The notes under the pieces: model-generated
Seen by the model: only the letters and a program-made list of their open reading frames with translations
Database searches by the model: none
What the model was told of the DNA's origin: nothing
Position numbers and translations under genes: made by a program
Shown: positions 9,421 through 49,440 of the stretch, piece by piece
Layout: every line of letters starts with the position of its first letter
How positions within the stretch are numbered: the first letter of the stretch is position 1
NCBI GenBank assembly: GCA_017458125.1
Contig: JAFTGB010000055.1
Coordinates: 1 to 50,835 of the forward strand
Origin: Prevotella sp.
GTDB lineage: Bacteria; Bacteroidota; Bacteroidia; Bacteroidales; Bacteroidaceae
Length of the DNA: 50,835 nucleotides
Direction of reading: 5' to 3'

Positions 9421-10248
9421 CTAAGCGCCCAGTTCGTTGAGCGGCGAGGCAGCCCACAGCAGGGCCTTGCCCATGTAACCCAGCGCGCAAACCTTCGTAA
9501 TGCGCAGGTCGTTCTTGAGCGGTGTGCGCTTTCCGGTAGCCGTGTTTTCCCAATTGTCGGGCAGCAGGTCGGCAGCAGCGCGGAAGTCCTCGGCAGCCTT
9601 CTGTGCAGCCTCTTGGAACGAGAGTCGCGGCAGGTCAAAGGGACCGTCGGCCGGAATGACGTGGTCGACGTATGGCAGTCCGCCAAACCATATCATCTGC
9701 TCCAGATGCCACCAGGCACGGAAGAAGAGCAGCTGTCCCTTGATGAAGTTCTTCTCTTCCTGTGTGGCATTGGTCAGCTTGTCAATGTTCTCCAATCCGA
9801 GGTTCATTTTGCGGATGCAGTACCAGGCATGCTCAAGCGAGTGGTCAAACTTGTTGTTTGATGTCGAGTTGATGGAGGGGCGGTGCAGGTAGTTCTGGCT
9901 ATTGTCCGTGTACCAGTAGCGGTAGTCGCCCAAGTCAATGTGTGCCACGGTGTGCGCGTCGCCACCGCCGGTATTCATCAGCTCGTCCTCACCCCAGTTG
10001 AAGCCTGTGCAATACCAGTTCGACTCCTTGTTGGGGATGCAGTTGTAGGCCTCCTCTACGAAACCCTGGAAGTTCTGGAAGTTCATGAACGCCATCTCAG
10101 GGTTGACGTCCGAGTCTGCCGTCTTGTCCAGATAGTCGGTGCAGGAAGTGAAAAGTGAAGAGTGAAGAGTGAAGAATGCTGCACCAAACAGCACCGTCAC
10201 AACTCTTCTGCAACCTCTTGCACGACCGTATATTTTGTTTTCTTTCAT
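9421..10248 (-). CDS. xusB: XusB N-terminal half (275 residues), ends at the amber codon
   Basis: If translated as it stands, this part gives an exported lipoprotein stump with a signal ending at LFTSC (Cys36) and the first SusD helices, including ALGYMGKALLWAASPLNE, but no C-terminal SusD domain. The end of its signal peptide (FFTLHSSLFTS) is encoded by short tandem TTCACTC-type repeats at 10147-10176. It would not be expected to form a full glycan-binding protein. Confidence 0.8.
   Translation of the reverse strand: MKENKIYGRARGCRRVVTVLFGAAFFTLHSSLFTSCTDYLDKTADSDVNPEMAFMNFQNFQGFVEEAYNCIPNKESNWYCTGFNWGEDELMNTGGGDAHTVAHIDLGDYRYWYTDNSQNYLHRPSINSTSNNKFDHSLEHAWYCIRKMNLGLENIDKLTNATQEEKNFIKGQLLFFRAWWHLEQMIWFGGLPYVDHVIPADGPFDLPRLSFQEAAQKAAEDFRAAADLLPDNWENTATGKRTPLKNDLRITKVCALGYMGKALLWAASPLNELGA
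10147..10176 (-). repeat. Short tandem repeat (TTCACTC type) inside the xusB signal peptide
   Basis: On the minus strand, heptamer-like units TTCACTC/TTCACTT run in tandem and encode FFTLHSSLFTS, the last part of the hydrophobic core and the lipobox of XusB. A second run of the same type lies at 10307-10335, just after xusA. Confidence 0.75.
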
Positions 10249-15792: not shown

Positions 15793-18477
15793 ATGAACAG
15801 AACACAAAGACACAAAGACACAAAGTCTTTTAGAGGCAAGAAGCAAGAGGCAAGAAGCAAGAGAATACTCAAACATCAGACATTTCTCATGCCTCTTGCA
15901 TCTTGCATCTTGCTTATTCTAACATGCTGCACGGCAGCCTGCGTGACAGCCCAGACGCTGCCCTACCAGAACCCTGCCCTCAGCGCCCACGAGCGTGCCG
16001 TTGACCTCTGCCAGCGGCTGACGTTAGAAGAGAAAGCCCTGCTCATGCAGGACGAGTCGCCCGCCATTGCGCGTTTAGGCATCAAGAAGTTCTACTGGTG
16101 GAGCGAGGCCCTGCACGGCGCCGCCAACATGGGCAACGTCACCGTGTTCCCCGAACCGGTGGCCATGGCGGCATCGTTCAACCCCGACCTGCTCTACCGC
16201 GTCTTCGACGTGGCCTCGACGGAGTTCCGCGCCCAGTACCATGAGCGCATGCAGCGCGGCAGCGGCGAGGACGAGAAGTTCCACAGCCTGTCGGTGTGGA
16301 CGCCGAATGTCAACATCTTCCGCGACCCGCGTTGGGGACGCGGACAGGAGACCTACGGCGAAGACCCCTACCTGACCAGCATCATGGGCGATGCCGTGGT
16401 GCGCGGACTGCAAGGCCCCGAGTCGGCCAAGTACCGTAAGCTGTGGGCCTGTGCCAAGCACTACGCCGTACACAGCGGTCCGGAGTACACGCGCCACACG
16501 GCCAACCTCACCGACGTGCCCGTGCGCGACCTGTGGGAGACGTACCTGCCTGCCTTCAAACACTTAGTGCAGCACAGCAAGGTGCGCGAGGTGATGTGCG
16601 CCTACCAGCGCTTGGACGACGAGCCGTGCTGCGGTTCCACGCGCCTTTTGCAGGACATCCTGCGCCGCGAGTGGGGCTTCCAGTATTTAGTGGTCAGCGA
16701 CTGCGGAGCCGTCAGCGACTTCTACACGTCGCACAAGAGTTCGTCGTCGGCCGTCACGGCATCGGCTAAAGCCGTGCTGGCAGGCACTGACGTGGAGTGT
16801 GGCTTCGGCTACTCCTACGGCAGCATTCCCGAGGCCGTGCGCCGCGGCCTCGTCAGCGAACAGGAGATTGACAAGCATGTGGTGCGCCTCTTGGAGGGTC
16901 GCTTCGACCTGGGCGAGATGGACGACGCCTCGTTGGTGGAGTGGTCGCGCATCCCCTACTCCGTCATGTCGTCGAAGGCTCATGCCGCCCTTGCCCTCGA
17001 CATGGCGCGCCAGTCGCTCGTGCTGCTGCAGAACAAGGGCGGCATCCTGCCCCTCAGCAAGCGGGGCGAGAAGATTGCCGTCATCGGTCCTAACGCCGAC
17101 AGCGCGCCCATGATGTGGGGCAACTACAACGGCGTGCCCAACCGGACGGTGACCATCCTCGACGGCATCAGAGCCAAGCACCGCAACGTGCTCTACCTGC
17201 CCGCCTGCGACCTGACCAACGACAAGGTGATGGACTGCCTGTTAGCCTCGCAATGTGCCGCCGACGGCAAGAAGGGTCTGAAGGGCACCTTCTGGAACAA
17301 CGTCGACATGGCGGGCAAACCCGTCAGCACGCAGCAGTACACGACACCCGTGGCGGTGACGACGGCCGGCATGCACAACTTTGCGCCGCGCGTGAACGTC
17401 GAGGATTTCTCGGCCCGCTACGAGACGGTGTTCACCCCGAAGGAGGCGGGCGAATATGTGGTCAACGTGGAAGGCTGCGGCGACTTCGAGGTGTGGATTG
17501 ACGGCGAGCAGAAGGTGAAGATGCACACATGGCGCACCACGCCGACGCGCACGCCCATCCAGGCCGTCAAGGGCAAGAGCTACCGCATAGAGGTGCGCTT
17601 CCAGTTTGTCAAGACGTGGGGCGCAAACCTGAAGATTGACGTGGCCAAGGAACTGCCTATCGACTACCAGCAGACCATAGCACGCCTGAAAGGCATCAGC
17701 AAGGTGGTCTTCGTGGGTGGCATATCGCCGGCTCTTGAGGGCGAGGAAATGCCCGTAAACATTGACAGTTTCAAGGGTGGCGACCGCACCAGCATCGAGC
17801 TGCCGCGCGTGCAGCGCGACTTCCTGAAGGCGCTGAAGGCTGCCGGCAAGCAGGTCATCCTGGTCAACTGTTCTGGCTCGGCCATTGCCCTGGAGCCTGA
17901 GACCGAGACGTGCGACGCCATCCTTCAGGCCTGGTATGCCGGCCAGGAGGGCGGCACGGCAGTGGCCGACGTGCTGTTCGGCGACTGCAACCCGTCCGGC
18001 AAACTGCCCGTCACCTTCTACCGCAGCGACGCCCAGCTGCCTGACTACGAAGACTATTCCATGCGCGGGCGCACGTACCGCTATTTCAATGACGCCCTCT
18101 TCCCCTTCGGCTACGGGCTGTCGTACACCACCTTCCGCGTGGGACAGGCCACGCAGGAGCTGCAGCAGCAGACGGGAACCATGACCGTCAGCGTACCCGT
18201 GGCTAACACGGGAGGGCGCGAAGGTACGGAGACCCTGCAACTGTATCTGCGCTATCTGGACGACGCGGAGGCACCGCTGAAGACACTGCGCGGCTTCCAG
18301 CGCGTCACGCTGAAGGCCGGCGAGGAGCGCACGGTGACACTGCAGCTGCCTGCGGAGCGCTTCGAGTTCTTCGACCCGCAGACCAACACCATGCGCATTC
18401 GACCGGGCCGCTACCAGCTGCTCTACGGCACCAGCTCGCGCGCCGACGACTTGCAGACGCTCAGTTTCTCGCTGTAG
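15793..18477 (+). CDS. GH3-family beta-xylosidase with PA14 insert and fibronectin III-like C-terminus
   Basis: Releases xylose from xylo-oligosaccharides, probably in the periplasm. The N-terminus to about residue 53 is an export signal ending CVTAQ; Met33 is an alternative start. The GH3 N-domain follows (SEALHGAANMG, NIFRDPRWGRGQETYGEDPYL), with the nucleophile D303 in VVSDCGAVSDF. A PA14-type domain (about 495-610) is inserted in the GH3 C-domain, and an FnIII-like domain closes the protein (about 790-890). This is the usual layout of Prevotella GH3 beta-xylosidases. The first 45 codons contain short tandem repeats, so the peptide KKQEARSK and the hydrophobic core LMPLASCILL are repeat-derived. 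Confidence 0.93.
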   Translation: MNRTQRHKDTKSFRGKKQEARSKRILKHQTFLMPLASCILLILTCCTAACVTAQTLPYQNPALSAHERAVDLCQRLTLEEKALLMQDESPAIARLGIKKFYWWSEALHGAANMGNVTVFPEPVAMAASFNPDLLYRVFDVASTEFRAQYHERMQRGSGEDEKFHSLSVWTPNVNIFRDPRWGRGQETYGEDPYLTSIMGDAVVRGLQGPESAKYRKLWACAKHYAVHSGPEYTRHTANLTDVPVRDLWETYLPAFKHLVQHSKVREVMCAYQRLDDEPCCGSTRLLQDILRREWGFQYLVVSDCGAVSDFYTSHKSSSSAVTASAKAVLAGTDVECGFGYSYGSIPEAVRRGLVSEQEIDKHVVRLLEGRFDLGEMDDASLVEWSRIPYSVMSSKAHAALALDMARQSLVLLQNKGGILPLSKRGEKIAVIGPNADSAPMMWGNYNGVPNRTVTILDGIRAKHRNVLYLPACDLTNDKVMDCLLASQCAADGKKGLKGTFWNNVDMAGKPVSTQQYTTPVAVTTAGMHNFAPRVNVEDFSARYETVFTPKEAGEYVVNVEGCGDFEVWIDGEQKVKMHTWRTTPTRTPIQAVKGKSYRIEVRFQFVKTWGANLKIDVAKELPIDYQQTIARLKGISKVVFVGGISPALEGEEMPVNIDSFKGGDRTSIELPRVQRDFLKALKAAGKQVILVNCSGSAIALEPETETCDAILQAWYAGQEGGTAVADVLFGDCNPSGKLPVTFYRSDAQLPDYEDYSMRGRTYRYFNDALFPFGYGLSYTTFRVGQATQELQQQTGTMTVSVPVANTGGREGTETLQLYLRYLDDAEAPLKTLRGFQRVTLKAGEERTVTLQLPAERFEFFDPQTNTMRIRPGRYQLLYGTSSRADDLQTLSFSL
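15801..15920 (+). repeat. Short tandem repeats with inverted arms in the GH3 signal-peptide region
   Basis: Three ACACAAAG-type units (15801-15825) are followed by AAGCAAGAGGCAAG-type units (15832-15864). Their near-reverse complement, CTCTTGCATCTTGCATC-type units, lies at 15886-15920. The arms could pair into a hairpin. Both arms are within the GH3 reading frame and keep it open. Confidence 0.8.
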
Positions 18478-18550: not shown

Positions 18551-18687
18551 CGTTTATCATCGGCCGTGTTGCAATTTAAATTAAATTGCGCAGCAAATTA
18601 AATTAAATTGGTGAGCAATTTAAATTAAATTGGTCTGCAAATTAAATTAAATTGCAACGCTGCGGATGATATTTGTCATGGTAAACG
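18551..18687. repeat. Array of four 22-bp A/T-rich repeats within a large palindrome
   Basis: Four exact 22-bp units run head to tail at 18571-18592, 18593-18614, 18615-18636 and 18637-18658. Each has the core GCAA(T/A)TTAAATTAAATTG (18 bp) and four variable bases (CGCA, GTGA, GTCT, CAAC). The array is flanked by inverted sequence (ATCATCGGCCGTGTTGC left, GCAACGCTGCGGATGAT right), with CGTTTA and TAAACG at the outer edges. Each core is itself nearly self-complementary. It lies between GH3 and the HU-like gene. It could be a transcription stop, a protein-binding array or a mobile-element remnant; no function is clear. Confidence 0.85.
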
Positions 18688-25909: not shown

Positions 25910-27652
25910 ATGAAGAAAACCATCAAAACCCTTGTCGTGGCCATGGCTGCTGCCACGACGGCCATGGCACAGAATGCCACCTTCAGCCACTACAGCTATG
26001 CGGGCAACGACCAGCGCTTCCAGCAGCAGTACGACCCGCAGAAGCAGTACCTGAACCCCATATTGGCCGGTTTCTACCCTGACCCGTCGATATGCCGGGC
26101 AGGCGACACGTACTACTTGGTCAACTCGTCGTTCTCTTTCTTCCCCGGAGTGCCCATCTTCCAGAGCAACGACCTGGTCAACTGGCAACAGTTGGGACAC
26201 GTGCTCGACCGTCCCTCGCAGGTGCCGCTGAAAGGACAGCGCGTCAGCGGCGGCATCTTTGCACCGGACATTAAGTATAACGCCCGCAACAAGACCTTCT
26301 ACATGATAACCACCAACGTAGGCGCGGGCAACTTCTTCGTCAAGACCACCGACCCCGCCAAGGGATGGAGCGAACCCGTCTACCTGCCGCAAGTGGACGG
26401 CATAGACCCTTCGTTCTTCTTCGACCGTGACGGTTCGGCATACATCGTACACAACGGACCCGTAGAGGGCGGTGCCGACTACGAAGGACAGCGCGCCATC
26501 CGCATCCTGCGCTTCGACACGCGCGGCGACAGCATCATCACGCGCGGCACACCGCAGCAGCGCGGCTGGTGGCAGATAGTGCGCGGAGGCACGCACGTCG
26601 AGGAGCGTCCCATCTGGATTGAAGGTCCTCACCTCTACCGCATCGGCAAATACTACTACCTCATGTGCGCCGAGGGAGGCACCGGCGACTGGCACTCGGA
26701 AGTCATCTTCCGCGCACCTGTCAAGGCCGACATCACCGACCCCGCCGCATGGGAAGAGTGCCCCCACAACCCCATACTGACTCAGCGAACGGGACTGGAT
26801 CCTAAACGCCCCGACATCGTAACCAGCACCGGTCATGCCGACCTGGTGCAGACTCCCGCAGGCGACTGGTACGCCGTCTTCCTCGGCTGCCGCGCATACG
26901 AAGGACCGTTCTACAACACCGGCCGCGACACTTACATGCTTCCCGTCACCTGGCGCGACGGCTGGCCCACCATCCTTGAACCCGGCAAACCCGTCCCCAC
27001 CGTCGTCAACCTGCAAGAGAGAAGCAAGAAGCAAGAAGCAAGAGGCAAGAGTAATCATACCTCTCAGTTCTCACCTCTCACCTCTCACCTCACAGGCAAC
27101 TTCACCTACACCGACGACTTCAACACCGCCAAGCTCGACCAGCGATGGATGTTCCTGCGCAACCCGACAAACGACTTCTACACCACAGGTAACGGACAGC
27201 TCACCATCCGACCGCTGCCCTGCCACATAGGACAGCGCGAAGCACTGTCAGCCATTTTCTGCCGTCAGCAGCATACCAACTTCGAGGCCGAGACCACTGT
27301 CGACTTCCATGCACGCACGGCAAGCGAACTGGCGGGCATGGCTCTGCTGCAGAACGAGGACTACAACTTCGTGCTGGGCAAGACTGTCCTCGACGGACGG
27401 CCTGCCATTGTGCTCACCCGCGCCGAACGCGGCAAGGTCGTCATCGCCTCGGCATTCCTGACCGACGCTGACGCCCCCGTGCGCCTTAAAGTGTCGGGAA
27501 ATGGCCGCTACTACACCTTCTGCTACGCCACCGCCGACGGACAGTGGCAGACGCTGGCCACGGGTGTCGATGCCGTCAACCTCAGCACCAGCAGAAGCGG
27601 CGGCTTCATTGGAGCCTGCATCGGCCTTTATGCCACGACGGAAAACCAGTGA
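25910..27652 (+). CDS. GH43-family beta-xylosidase / alpha-L-arabinofuranosidase with C-terminal beta-sandwich
   Basis: A 580-residue exported glycosidase trimming xylan side chains or ends. The start at ATG 25910 gives a clean signal peptide ending TAMAQ. The five-bladed propeller has the three GH43 acids: D58 in FYPDPSI, D166 in DGIDPSF and E238 in WIEGPHLY. A GH43_C2-like beta-sandwich covers about 400-575 (NFEAETTVDF, GMALLQNEDYNF). Between the domains (residues 368-393) lies a repeat-encoded insert with KKQEARGK and SPLTSHL, almost identical to one in LpdA. It is the last gene of the xylan region and converges with lpdA. Substrate preference, xylose or arabinose, cannot be told by eye. 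Confidence 0.92.
   Translation: MKKTIKTLVVAMAAATTAMAQNATFSHYSYAGNDQRFQQQYDPQKQYLNPILAGFYPDPSICRAGDTYYLVNSSFSFFPGVPIFQSNDLVNWQQLGHVLDRPSQVPLKGQRVSGGIFAPDIKYNARNKTFYMITTNVGAGNFFVKTTDPAKGWSEPVYLPQVDGIDPSFFFDRDGSAYIVHNGPVEGGADYEGQRAIRILRFDTRGDSIITRGTPQQRGWWQIVRGGTHVEERPIWIEGPHLYRIGKYYYLMCAEGGTGDWHSEVIFRAPVKADITDPAAWEECPHNPILTQRTGLDPKRPDIVTSTGHADLVQTPAGDWYAVFLGCRAYEGPFYNTGRDTYMLPVTWRDGWPTILEPGKPVPTVVNLQERSKKQEARGKSNHTSQFSPLTSHLTGNFTYTDDFNTAKLDQRWMFLRNPTNDFYTTGNGQLTIRPLPCHIGQREALSAIFCRQQHTNFEAETTVDFHARTASELAGMALLQNEDYNFVLGKTVLDGRPAIVLTRAERGKVVIASAFLTDADAPVRLKVSGNGRYYTFCYATADGQWQTLATGVDAVNLSTSRSGGFIGACIGLYATTENQ
27011..27086 (+). repeat. 76-bp in-frame repeat element in GH43 (twin of the one in lpdA)
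   Basis: An AAGCAAG-type run (27016-27052) and a TCTCACC-type run (27060-27095) form one unit. In gene sense it aligns without gaps over 76 bp with 28278-28203 in lpdA, 72 positions identical by my count. Both encode the peptide in the same frame, here LQERSKKQEARGKSNHTS and QFSPLTSHL. Confidence 0.9.
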
Positions 27653-27661
27653 TTGTATTGG

Positions 27662-27746
27662 ACCATTTGACTATTTTACTATTTCACCATTGGACAATTG
27701 CAGCCAGAAATGGTCAAATGGTGAAATAGTAAAATAGTCAAATGGT
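27662..27746. terminator. Perfect 30-bp inverted repeat between convergent GH43 and lpdA
   Basis: 27662-27691 is exactly complementary to 27717-27746, with a 25-nt loop. The arms consist of CTATTTTA/CTATTTCA units, the same units as at 31829-31863. It fills the whole gap between two converging genes and ends one base before the lpdA stop, so it can serve as a two-way terminator. Confidence 0.8.
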
Positions 27747-27747
27747 A

Positions 27748-29061
27748 TTATAGCGTTGCTGCCAGAAGGACTTCGGAGAGTGTGGGGTGGATGTGAACCA
27801 TGTCGCGTAACTGGCTGACCGTCGTGTCACGGCACATCAGGACGGAAGCCTCCTGGATGAGGTCAGCGGCATGGGCACCAAAGGCATGACAGCCCACGAT
27901 GCGGTCGGCAGCGTCGGACAGCAACTTCAGCATGCCCTCGCCCTCGTTCATGGCGAGGGCTTTGCCGTTGGCACGCCAAAAGGCCTTGCGACAACGGTAG
28001 GATGTACCCTCTGCCTTGAGCTGGTCTTCGGAGCGTCCCACGCAGGCGGCTTCGGGCTGTGTGAAGATGGCGGCAGGCATGATGTCGAAACGAATGCCGT
28101 CGCTGCGCCCAACGATGTGGTTGACGGCACGCACAGCCTGCATCTCGGCAGCATGGGCTAACAGCTGGCGCCCATTGACATCGCCAATGGCATAGACAAA
28201 TGGAGAGGTGAGAGGTGAGAATTGAGAGGTATGAGTACTCTTGCTTCTTGCTTCTTGCTTCTTGATTCTCTCTTGCAGAGCATCAAGAACCAAAAAGTTG
28301 TCGTCGACGGGGATGAAGCCGCGCTCATCGGTGGCAATGCCTGCTGCCTGCAGGTTCAGTCCTTCGGTGTAGGGCTGACGACCGGTGGCGACAAGGATGA
28401 CGTCGGCGTCGATGTCGGACAGCGACTGCACGGCGGTCTTCATGCGGAAAGTAATGCCGCGGCGCTCCAGCAGCTTGCGCAGCCGCTTGGCCACGTCGCT
28501 GTCAAGCATGGGCAGACACTCTTTCAGATACTCTATGACCGTCACCTCGGTGCCGAAGCGCTGGAACACGCTGGCAAACTCCATACCTATGACACCAGCG
28601 CCGATGATGCAGAGCCGCCGCGGCTGGGTACGCAGCTGCAACAGCTGGGTGCTGGTCATGACGCGCGCATCGTCGAGACCATCGGCAGCGATGAGCTTCG
28701 GACGGCTGCCCGTGGCAATGATGACATGACGAGCAGCGACCGTCGTTAGCGCATCGACGCTGACTGTACAGGCATCGACGAACGAGGCACGGCCACGAAG
28801 CAGCGTGATGCCGGGAGCCGACAGCAGCTGCTCGACACCGCTGCGCAACTGGTCGGTGACCTGCTGCTGGCGCTCGACGGCCTCAGCGAAGGTGGCACTA
28901 TGGACGTAGGTTTTGGTGGGTATGCACCCGCGGTTCAGACAGGTGCCGCCCACCAAGTCCTGTTCAACGATGACAACCTGCAAGCCCTGGCGTGCGGCAT
29001 ATTCGGCAGCACGGTAGCCGCCGGGACCAGCTCCGATAATAAGGAGGTCGACTTTCTTCAT
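27748..29061 (-). CDS. lpdA: Dihydrolipoyl dehydrogenase (glycine cleavage L-protein)
   Basis: A FAD-dependent enzyme that reoxidises the dihydrolipoyl arm of GcvH with NAD+. The FAD site GAGPGGYRAAEYAARQG is at residues 10-26 and the redox disulfide is Cys41/Cys46 in GGTCLNRGCIPTK. The NAD site is IGAGVIGMEFASVF and the C-terminal interface has HIHPTLSEVL with the catalytic His. Residues 262-286, right before the conserved VYAIGDVNG, are a repeat-encoded insert (LQERIKKQEARSK, SPLTSPF) absent from ordinary family members. It is the last gene of the gcv operon, 19 bp after gcvPB. The insert lies in a loop, so the enzyme may still work. Confidence 0.95.
   Translation of the reverse strand: MKKVDLLIIGAGPGGYRAAEYAARQGLQVVIVEQDLVGGTCLNRGCIPTKTYVHSATFAEAVERQQQVTDQLRSGVEQLLSAPGITLLRGRASFVDACTVSVDALTTVAARHVIIATGSRPKLIAADGLDDARVMTSTQLLQLRTQPRRLCIIGAGVIGMEFASVFQRFGTEVTVIEYLKECLPMLDSDVAKRLRKLLERRGITFRMKTAVQSLSDIDADVILVATGRQPYTEGLNLQAAGIATDERGFIPVDDNFLVLDALQERIKKQEARSKSTHTSQFSPLTSPFVYAIGDVNGRQLLAHAAEMQAVRAVNHIVGRSDGIRFDIMPAAIFTQPEAACVGRSEDQLKAEGTSYRCRKAFWRANGKALAMNEGEGMLKLLSDAADRIVGCHAFGAHAADLIQEASVLMCRDTTVSQLRDMVHIHPTLSEVLLAATL
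28203..28278 (-). repeat. 76-bp in-frame repeat element in lpdA (twin of the one in GH43)
   Basis: In gene sense this begins CTGCAAGAGAGAATCAAG and ends with TCTCACC-type units. It matches the GH43 element at 72 of 76 positions and is read in the same frame. The two host genes are unrelated and face each other, so a shared gene origin does not explain the match. Confidence 0.9.
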
Positions 29062-34472: not shown

Positions 34473-36401
34473 GTGAAACTACTGCAAAGCATCAGAGAAC
34501 CTGAAGACCTGAGAAGGCTGGCTGTGGACGAACTGCCGGAGGTTTGCCGCGAGTTGCGCGAGGACATCGTCAAGGAGTTGTCGGTAAACCCCGGACACTT
34601 GGCGTCAAGCCTTGGTGCCACCGAGATTACCGTGGCGTTGCACTACGTCTACAACACGCCGGAGGACCGCATCGTGTGGGACGTGGGTCATCAGGCTTAC
34701 GGTCACAAGATACTGACCGGTCGCAGGGCGCTGTTCTGCACCAACCGCAAATTAGGCGGACTGCGACCTTTCCCCTCACCCGAAGAGAGCAAATACGACA
34801 CCTTTGCCTGCGGACATGCCTCGAACAGCATCTCGGCAGCATTGGGCATGGCCGTGGCAGCAAGGCAGATGGGAGACGACAGGAAGGTGGTGGCCGTCAT
34901 CGGCGACGGAGCCATGTCGGGCGGTCTGGCCTTCGAGGGGCTGAACAACGTGTCGTCGTCGGACAACGACATGCTGATTATCCTGAACGACAACAACATG
35001 TCGATAGACCGCGCCGTGGGCGGCATGCAGGAGTACCTGCTGTCGCTGAACACCAACGAGACGTACAACGCCATGCGCTTCAAGGTGACGCGCTGGCTGC
35101 ACCGCATAGGACTGCTGAACGACAACCGGAGGCGGGGACTCATCAGACTGACCAACGCCGTCAAGTCGGCCATATCGCACCAGCAGAACGTGTTCGAAGG
35201 CATGGACATCCGATACTTCGGACCTTTCAACGGCCACGACGTGAAGGAGCTGGTGCGCATTCTGCGCCAGCTGAAGGATATGAAAGGGCCTAAGATGCTG
35301 CACCTGCACACCCAGAAAGGCCATGGCTACGCTCCCGCCGAGAAGGACGTGACGGTATGGCATGCACCGGGGCGCTTCGACGCCGAGACGGGCGAGCGTG
35401 TGGTGAAGGACACCACGGGGACGCCGCCGCGGTTTCAGGATGTCTTCGGCGAGACGCTGCTGGAGCTGGCCCGCCAGAACGGGCGCATAGTGGGTGTGAC
35501 GCCGGCCATGCCGACAGGTTGCTCCATGAACCTGATGATGAAGGAGATGCCAGAGCGTACGTTCGACGTGGGCATTGCCGAGGGGCATGCCGTCACATTC
35601 TCGGGAGGCATGGCCAAGGAGGGGCTGCTGCCCTTTTGCAACATCTACAGTGCCTTTGCCCAACGCGCCTTCGACAACATCATACACGACGTGGCCCTGC
35701 TCAGGCTGAACGTCGTCATCTGTCTGGACCGTGCCGGACTGGTGGGCGAGGACGGTCCCACGCACCATGGTGCCTTCGACATGGCAGCCCTGCGCCCTAT
35801 CCCCCACCTCACCATCGCCTCGCCCATGGACGAGCACGAGCTGCGCCGACTGATGTTCACCGCCCAACTGCCCGACAAGGGGCCTTTTGTCATACGATAC
35901 CCCAGGGGACGCGGTTCGCTGGTGGACTGGCGTTGCCCGTTAGAGGAGATTGCCGTAGGCAAAGGACGCCGCCTGCGCGACGGCAGCGACGTGGCAGTAG
36001 TATCCATCGGCCCCATCGGTAAGACGGTTGCCCAGGCCATCGACGAGATTTCTCACCTCTCATCTCTCACCTCTCACCTCTCCGTCACCCACTACGACTT
36101 GCGATTCCTGAAACCGTTAGACGACGACCTGCTGCACGAGATTGGCCGCAAGTTCAAGCATGTGGTCACCGTGGAGGACGGTGTGCTGGCCGGGGGCATG
36201 GGCGCTGCCGTACTGGAGTGGATGAGCGCACACGGCTACTCACCAGTCATCCGCCGACTCGGTTTGCCCGACGAATTCGTGGAACACGGCAAGGTGAGCG
36301 AACTGCAAGCCATCGTAGGCATTGACAAGGAAAGCATCTTGCGAGCCATCACAGAGGCCATTGACGAAAACGAAGACGAAAAACGAAGACGTAAATCGTA
36401 A
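34473..36401 (+). CDS. dxs: 1-deoxy-D-xylulose-5-phosphate synthase
   Basis: Makes DXP from pyruvate and glyceraldehyde 3-phosphate, the first step of the MEP isoprenoid pathway. 642 residues. The thiamine diphosphate site is [20 protein letters not shown] with the LNDNNMSID segment; the transketolase middle part has [18 protein letters not shown], and the C-terminal domain has [16 protein letters not shown]. Start codon GTG, chosen because [14 protein letters not shown] matches the usual N-terminus. Residues 527-537 ([11 protein letters not shown]) are a repeat-encoded insert before [13 protein letters not shown]. The tail [12 protein letters not shown] is repeat-encoded too. Confidence 0.96.
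36051..36083 (+). repeat. In-frame TCTCACC-type repeat inside dxs
   Basis: Tandem TCTCACC/TCTCATC units encode [11 protein letters not shown], 11 codons. The same units occur in the GH43 and lpdA elements ([14 protein letters not shown]) and at the S41 peptidase start (SSLTSHL). Confidence 0.8.
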
Positions 36402-48435: not shown

Positions 48436-49222
48436 ATACAGCCTGTTGGCTGTCGCCTGCTGGCTGCTGACGCTCGCCGCCTACGGCCAACAGCCTAAAG
48501 TCATCACGCGCAGCACGATGATAGGTTTCGGCGGCACCAATGTGCTGGACACCTACCTCTCCGAAGAGCACTTCAGCGGACCAGGACTCACGTTCCTGGC
48601 CACCGTGGAGCGGCAGCGGCCCGACCGCCACTGGTCTACGCTGGTGGAGCACGAGGCAAACGTGTCAACAGTGAAAGACCGCGCCAACTCCAAGCAGGAG
48701 TTAGAGGGTGCCTACAACCTCTACTGGGGACGGCTGCGCAGCTGGCTGTTAGCCGACGGACGGCTGCGACTGCAGGCCGGTGCCGTGGCCAACGCCTCGC
48801 TGGGCTTCATCTACAACACCAGCAACTCCAACAACCCCGCACAAGCCCGCGCCCACCTCAACGTCATGCCCACGGCCGTGGCGCACTACTCGTTCCGTCT
48901 CTTCGGCCTGTCCGTCACAGCCCGCTACGAGTTCAACATGCCCTTGGTCGGCATCATGTTCTCGCCCAACTACGGACAGTCTTACTACGAGATATTCGCG
49001 CGTGGCAACTACGACCACAACGTCGTCCCCACCACCTTCGTCACGGCTCCCGAGTGGCGCCATGCCCTGACCGTCGACACGCCAGTCAGCAAAACGCTCA
49101 CCTTACGGCTGGGCTACCTCGGCAACATGCAGCAGGCTAAGGTCAACAACCTGCGCCAGCACGTCTACACCCACCGCTTCCTCGTCGGACTGACCAAGCG
49201 GTTCTCTGTTATTCCTAAATGA
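48422..49222 (+). CDS. DUF3316 family exported protein
   Basis: A 266-residue protein with a signal peptide (ending AAYGQQ) that fits DUF3316, a family found mainly in Bacteroidota. It is beta-rich throughout, alternates polar and aromatic residues (YSFRLFGLSVTARYEFNMPL, HRFLVGLTKRFSVIPK) and ends in an aromatic/hydrophobic strand, all of which suggests an outer-membrane barrel. Function unknown. Its ATG overlaps the parC end by 14 bp, so the two are co-transcribed. Confidence 0.82.
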   Translation: MTKCRYSLLAVACWLLTLAAYGQQPKVITRSTMIGFGGTNVLDTYLSEEHFSGPGLTFLATVERQRPDRHWSTLVEHEANVSTVKDRANSKQELEGAYNLYWGRLRSWLLADGRLRLQAGAVANASLGFIYNTSNSNNPAQARAHLNVMPTAVAHYSFRLFGLSVTARYEFNMPLVGIMFSPNYGQSYYEIFARGNYDHNVVPTTFVTAPEWRHALTVDTPVSKTLTLRLGYLGNMQQAKVNNLRQHVYTHRFLVGLTKRFSVIPK

Positions 49223-49440
49223 GTAATGAGAAATGAGAAATGAGAAATGGAAATGAATAATGAAGAAATGGGAATGGAAGTGAAGAATAACAACAAACAA
49301 CAGAAACAACGGAAGCAACGGATGAGGAACGGAGCACAGCTCATTTCTACATTCCTCATTTCCATTTCTCATTTCTCATCTCTCACTTCTCATTTGGTGC
49401 GAAGCACCTCATTTCTCATTATACTCGCGTTCTCCCTCGT
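49221..49440 (+). repeat. Large inverted repeat of TCATTTC-type units at the start of the S41 peptidase gene
   Basis: GAGAAAT-type units (49221-49256) face TCATTTC-type units (49354-49395) as a long imperfect inverted repeat. A small GGTGC/GCACC hairpin (49396-49408) and one more TCATTTC unit follow. The left arm covers the DUF3316 stop region, and the right arm encodes SISHFSSLTSHL if the gene starts at 49247 or 49322. Confidence 0.8.

Follow-up and report, generated by a model that had tools for sequence, protein, structure and literature searches.

Rickettsia palindromic elements (RPEs) are described, in the part of the source available, as repeats of 105-146 bp with long stem-loops that lie in intergenic DNA and in frame within protein genes, 19 reading frames with an in-frame insert being reported (PMC2229807); the title of a work cited there also places dispersed repeats in protein genes of Wolbachia. 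TAACTGA heptamer repeats, in the available sections of their description, occur in Beggiatoaceae, Cyanobacteria and some Bacteroidetes; one unit dominates, related heptamers are rarely repeated, and the repeats lie mostly upstream of start codons, with some in open reading frames (ORFs) (PMC4679880). This report concerns a 76-bp composite repeat of two heptamer arrays, present in frame in two converging genes of a Prevotella sp. draft genome (assembly GCA_017458125.1, contig JAFTGB010000055.1, positions 1 to 50,835; this whole stretch of 50,835 nucleotides is hereafter the window). RPEs are the nearest known kind in behaviour and TAACTGA heptamers the nearest in make-up. The repeat shares with RPEs, as they appear in the portion available, a dispersed distribution in frame inside unrelated protein genes, and differs from them in being 76 bp long, consisting of two tandem heptamer arrays, folding weakly and being one of many unit types. 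Shared with the TAACTGA repeats, to the same extent of the source, are short head-to-tail 7-bp units, many per genome, some within ORFs; the Prevotella repeats differ in their many coexisting units, their composite and inverted elements and their position inside enzymes, with 27 of 96 arrays in ORFs.

Two further systems are more distant. BrickBuilt, a miniature inverted-repeat transposable element (MITE) of Porphyromonas gingivalis, is a dispersed element of tandem repeats in a related order, but according to the available portion of its account the repeat is 23 nt long, has 19 copies in one strain and is always intergenic (PMC4596501). PARCELs are coding repeats proposed to shuffle inside a genome and from one genome to another; they consist of a 25-residue motif in tandem in ORFs without assigned functions (PMC2996958), in contrast to the short inserts in identified enzymes found here. 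The literature searched, which covered few subscription papers, contained no account of multi-unit heptamer arrays within genes of Prevotella. Dispersed repeats within genes, described for Rickettsia and, by title, Wolbachia, are here reported from a gut Bacteroidota lineage, where they are built from tandem heptamers and occupy about 19 ORFs in 451 kb.

The first copy of the 76-bp repeat (27011..27086, plus strand) was found in a glycoside hydrolase family 43 gene with a GH43_C2 domain, assigned by domain matches (25910..27652, plus strand). The second (28203..28278, minus strand) was found in lpdA, encoding dihydrolipoyl dehydrogenase, assigned by domain match and comparison with solved structures (27748..29061, minus strand). 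The original prediction of a nearly identical pair in unrelated genes was borne out: the segments aligned without gaps at 72 of 76 positions, their likeness ended at the segment borders, and both were read in gene sense and in frame as LQER(S/I)KKQEAR(G/S)KS(N/T)HTSQFSPLTS. The two positions proposed to be tolerant were likewise seen. The GH43 copy fell between the Glyco_hydro_43 (aa 47-353) and GH43_C2 (aa 401-578) domains, and the lpdA copy directly preceded YAIGD, at a point where the two solved LPD chains displayed had few residues. Searched against its own genome, the 76-bp query recovered the lpdA copy at E 1.9e-28 among 69 matches with E<=10, which placed the pair beyond chance. Part of the 76-bp similarity is that of the repeat unit itself, both halves being tandem arrays of 7-mers. 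Further copies on other contigs supported the view that an element had been copied into unrelated genes.

The segment was absent from all 29 LpdA and all 29 GH43 homologues displayed (the L081 LpdA was cut before the site), and with the solved-structure comparisons this ruled out an old conserved segment common to the homologues. In the homologue alignment the GH43 insert stood in place of a native linker of about 10 residues and not at a clean empty site. An assembly artefact or binning chimera is hardly credible as an explanation. With 86 contigs and 88% completeness the assembly is a draft, in which repeats can collapse or misjoin; the copies, however, differed in sequence and sat in different open genes on several contigs, which ruled out a two-copy assembly duplication, and repeats in the same LpdA loop were found in separate assemblies of many species.

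Tandem Repeats Finder resolved each copy into two period-7 arrays, in the order (AAGCAAG)n, core AGTAATCATA, (CTCTCAC)n. In the GH43 copy these were a left array of the AAGCAAG type (27020..27051) and a right array of the CTCTCAC type (27062..27091), both also in the array list, around the core common to the aligned copies (27050..27059), all on the plus strand. In gene sense, the lpdA copy comprised a left array (28239..28269; repeat finder and array list), the core as AGTACTCATA (28230..28239; GH43/lpdA alignment and copy alignment) and a right array (28203..28230; repeat finder), all on the minus strand. The core recurred in 10 aligned copies, with one change in lpdA and a copy in mfd starting GGTAATCATA. 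Arm length differed between copies, and lone arms existed in rnhB and dxs. Independent local growth of heptamers in the two genes, alike through similar units alone, is very improbable. Heptamer arrays of many different units coexisted in the genome, and single units similar to the element arms also occurred alone, as that explanation would have it; but the non-repeat core and both arms agreed in order at 72 of 76 positions.

The likeness to RPEs drawn in the original prediction held for in-frame behaviour and not for size or hairpin: the element lies outside the range of about 105-146 bp, showed no long stem-loop with terminal inverted repeats and was not convincingly palindromic. Folding of the GH43 copy gave -15.8 against a shuffle mean of -10.9 (sd 2.8), and of the lpdA copy -10.5 against -8.4 (sd 2.7), leaving a strong hairpin unsupported. 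The two arms of the element were unlike each other; other arrays in the genome did form inverted pairs.

The pair is real, but it proved to be a single arrangement among the many period-7 arrays of a large population, and not a 76-bp unit of two copies. The genome sample comprised 450,835 b, namely the window and 20 stretches of 20 kb drawn from four long contigs with 76-bp matches, so that array density may be biased upward. Autocorrelation of this sample gave 79 segments at lag 7 and 41, 20, 16 and 12 at lags 14, 8, 22 and 21, respectively, with six each at lags 15 and 16 and at most three at lags 4-6, 9-13 and 17-20; a single Markov shuffle gave 0 at each lag.

When genes were first called by ORF length, 35 of the 96 merged arrays were coding (coding fraction 0.917) and 61 lay outside genes. 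Under a second call, ORFs with a third-position GC content (GC3) below 0.62 were dropped, and 7 arrays were thereby counted outside genes. After this filter 27 of the 96 arrays lay in 19 ORFs and 69 outside; arrays near an ORF start may lie before the true start codon. The hosts included lpdA, GH43, dxs, mfd and a lacZ-type GH2 gene. Within the 27 in-ORF arrays the unit was stop-free in sense 24 times and in antisense 9 times: 17 were open in sense only, two in antisense only, seven in both and one in neither. Extrapolation from 19 ORFs in 451 kb of a possibly biased sample would give about 140 genes with arrays in 3.37 Mb. Prevotella protein models can contain repeat-derived peptides, and users of such models should be warned accordingly.

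In-frame copies of the composite repeat were found in GH43, lpdA and GH2, three times in a 1355-aa ORF on contig 34, whose translation held another right arm, and once in a 1169-aa frame corresponding to mfd. In rnhB, a single left arm accounted for 13 extra residues against a solved structure. A CTCTCAC-type array (36051..36082, plus strand; solved-DXS comparison and array list) lay in frame in dxs (34473-36398), where the protein had seven extra residues at the array and three shortly before. In mfd, residues 983-1024 (42 residues, in frame) stood opposite 12 in the top solved match, and a second array lay near residue 132 in the unaligned part. The lacZ-type GH2 had 3 and 7 extra residues at one array relative to a solved structure; its 76-bp copy sat in a part without alignment to that structure. 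A 375-aa ORF beside arrays was discounted as a spurious reading of duplicated sequence.

The 76-bp query matched nine of 40 genomes at E<=0.001, namely its own and eight others, all of the same genus. Period-7 arrays were scarcer in the other genomes sampled. In other species of the genus, 15 segments were found at lag 7 (20 stretches, 400,000 b), eight of them in one genome; in other genera of the order there were two (20 stretches, 257,727 b, two short ones masked). With eight of 15 segments in one genome and the abundance in the window's own genome, period-7 arrays are therefore very uneven within the genus.

The loop preceding YAIGD in LpdA was followed across the genus. LpdA was found at E<=1e-60 in 74 of 120 genomes by protein search, many matches being split near residues 257 and 288. 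DNA search gave matches in 187 of 398 genomes, and many among the matches listed ended at the loop. A scan of titled genomes covered 80 loci, most of them in Prevotella and Prevotellaceae assemblies from the rumen or other gut sites. In total 179 loci were examined, of which 159 gave a loop by anchors and 20, including L228 and L232, did not; the 159 loops collapsed to 125 distinct sequences. Loop length was 6-8 aa in 64 of these (often ETTVKGI), 9 aa in one and at least 10 aa in 60.

Among the 60 long loops, 19 contained a lag-7 array at a score of at least 10 (shuffle mean 0 at lag 7). At the same score none had an array at lags 3-6, 8-11 or 13, one had an array at lag 12, and twelve at lag 14, a multiple of 7. 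A further 18 had a significant perfect stem without a lag-7 array, and 23 had neither. No short LpdA loop passed the lag-7 test. The units differed between loci: CTCTCAC (L059), AATTCTC (L063), AACTATC (L064), AACTGTC (L069), AACAGCC (L146) and CATCCCT (L139). In cultured strains, the loop of Prevotella aff. ruminicola Tc2-24 was 12 aa long and non-heptameric and those of khp7 and ne3005 were 7 aa long; no long heptamer loop was seen in named isolates among the loci examined.

A quick tree of 106 LpdA bodies with the loop removed (36 of 103 inner branches open, three long rows flagged) required at least 17 changes between the short and long states and at least 41 changes of hand-assigned loop class, both counts being approximate. 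Sister rows were often unlike in their loops (L075 and L289; L077 and L283). The short loop would be ancestral, a reading with which the few residues of the solved chains at this point agree. Different repeats have landed in the LpdA loop repeatedly across the genus, and the loop is as such a replicated natural experiment in which one orthologous site has received many different fillings. It makes the entry of short repeats into genes, and the question of why the period is 7, testable in strain collections.

Whether the loop repeat is always special to its own genome received a mixed answer. Three AACTGTC units with at most one mismatch gave 22 overlapping matches in G097, six of them in its lpdA, and two in the remaining 19 genomes of the selected panel. 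A reversed-pattern control gave 24 in G097 and was uninformative, the reversed unit being a rotation of the same repeat. Several genomes were rich in AACAGCC: 44 matches in G111 (two in lpdA), 40 in G151, 27 in G258 and six in G405. The GTAGGCTG palindrome was rare, with seven matches in five of 20 genomes.

Several other loops were recorded. Those of two species, L228 and L232, were built of CCTGAGCCTGTCGAAGG-type repeats, another kind beside heptamers and palindromes. A palindrome read as VGCDSVAA recurred in the loops of L075, L077, L161, L219 and L339 and was found too in a GH2 protein of the window's genome (L003 translation). The loops of L343 and L347 were 42 and 43 aa long with perfect stems of 36 and 13 bp, large palindromes in frame.

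Copies of the composite family and other arrays stand in frame in unrelated genes, mostly on a stop-free strand, and LpdA orthologues hold other repeats at the same place. We consider it probable, though well short of certain, that both segments are copies of one dispersed, composite repeat, a 10-bp core flanked by two heptamer arrays, within a large multi-unit period-7 population, spread by seeded slippage and template switching and retained by selection. Slipped-strand and template-switch synthesis would lengthen and move the arrays, which would be seeded where host DNA resembles the unit, in lpdA at AAYTWYC, and copied largely over short distances. A stop-free heptamer unit could land in any phase, with only the net length having to be a multiple of 3. 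Selection would then leave stop-free, sense-oriented, length-compatible inserts in surface loops and linkers, by default neutral and without function in the host protein.

A heptamer array encodes the same heptapeptide in all three frames, 7 not being divisible by 3, and coding insertion would therefore be eased. This argument is arithmetic, and the stop counts of the in-ORF arrays agree with it; it has no period-6 or period-9 control, because such arrays are nearly absent from the genome. For seeding, 16 distinct LpdA loops of the AA type were chosen by eye; in 14 of them the array began in phase with the native AAYTWYC of the Asn-(Tyr/Phe) codons, three of these loops being just 7-8 aa long. 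For short-distance copying, four pairs less than 2.5 kb apart were found among 11 family copies against 0.08 expected, a result reached in 0 of 20,000 random placements. Identity between copies was not borne out as a proof of local copying.

Several observations weigh against this account. The in-phase loops were chosen by eye, and the junction glutamine codon may be native. Identity over the core and right arm did not mark neighbours, at 78% for lpdA and mfd against 72% for lpdA and GH43, in a 50-nt comparison reaching beyond the lpdA arm. Two in-ORF arrays are open in antisense only, and the 23 long LpdA loops with neither array nor stem are neither heptameric nor palindromic by the tests used. 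The best LpdA match in 120 genomes was 75% identical, and no empty site came from a very close relative. Finally, some units recurred in several copies as inverted arms round conserved centres, which look like whole-element copying and not like slippage.

This last pattern, like the recurrence of the core with two arms at 10 or more places, is what would be expected of a true non-autonomous transposable element, MITE-like or RPE-like, moved whole by a trans-acting transposase with the heptamer arms as recognition sites. Two Y1_Tnp genes are present in the genome. Repetitive extragenic palindromic (REP) elements, small dispersed repeats associated with REP-associated tyrosine transposases (RAYTs), offer a parallel in that small repeats are dispersed here too and some LpdA loops are palindromes; they differ in that the two Y1_Tnp genes are not flanked by arrays of the composite family. 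A heptamer-flanked RAYT as engine was not found at the two Y1_Tnp matches, whose 1.5-kb flanks were without lag-7 arrays; an inverted pair of TTGTAACA-type 8-mer arrays lay about 0.7 kb from one of them. Arm length also varied between copies, single arms stood alone in rnhB and dxs, and the many different units in one LpdA loop are not easily explained by one enzyme. A transposase is accordingly the main rival, a serious but somewhat unlikely one, and seeded slippage with template switching is favoured.

Selection of the inserts for a function, for instance that of a flexible linker, an interaction peptide or a phase-variable switch, is improbable. In its favour, arrays persist in the core enzymes lpdA, dxs, mfd and rnhB and some N-terminal arrays resemble signal peptides; against it, loop content was unlike even between sister species and the loop was short in 64 of 125 distinct sequences, so no particular peptide has been kept. 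Going beyond seeded slippage and template switching, we raise as a tentative extension that period-7 arrays may be frame-agnostic coding selfish DNA able to invade genes in any phase, that the LpdA loop may be a genus-wide trap sampling each lineage's own repeats, and that some gene-start arrays may have become signal peptides.

The window held further 7- and 8-mer arrays of other units, some in inverted pairs. Between the converging GH43 and lpdA genes lay an inverted pair of 8-mer arrays (27662..27746) with arms of 38 nt, 95% complementary, detected by repeat finder and inverted-pair scan. From the array and inverted-pair lists, an 8-mer array with inverted AGAAGCA-type arrays occupied the putative start of an 894-aa ORF (15802..15913, plus strand), and a CATTTCT-type array near the N-terminus of a 384-aa ORF (49363..49392, plus strand) was one arm of an inverted pair (49217-49395). 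The array lists also gave a TTCACTC-type array near the N-terminus of a 275-aa ORF (10146..10175, minus strand). These three and the arrays at L120 15955-16004 and L127 15910-15936 resembled signal peptides by eye. An inverted AGAAGCA pair at an ORF start read KKQEARSK and then LMPLASCILL, and a TTATTTC array at an ORF start read FYFLFFISYLLTSC, the end of which was lipobox-like by eye.

Four 22-bp units with AATTTAAATT-type palindromes were present at 18571-18654 of the window and, nearly the same, at L136 18232-18313. An inverted duplication of more than 1 kb lay on one contig (L125 10265-11390 and 17189-18314), bordered on one side by an element with AGAAGCA arms.

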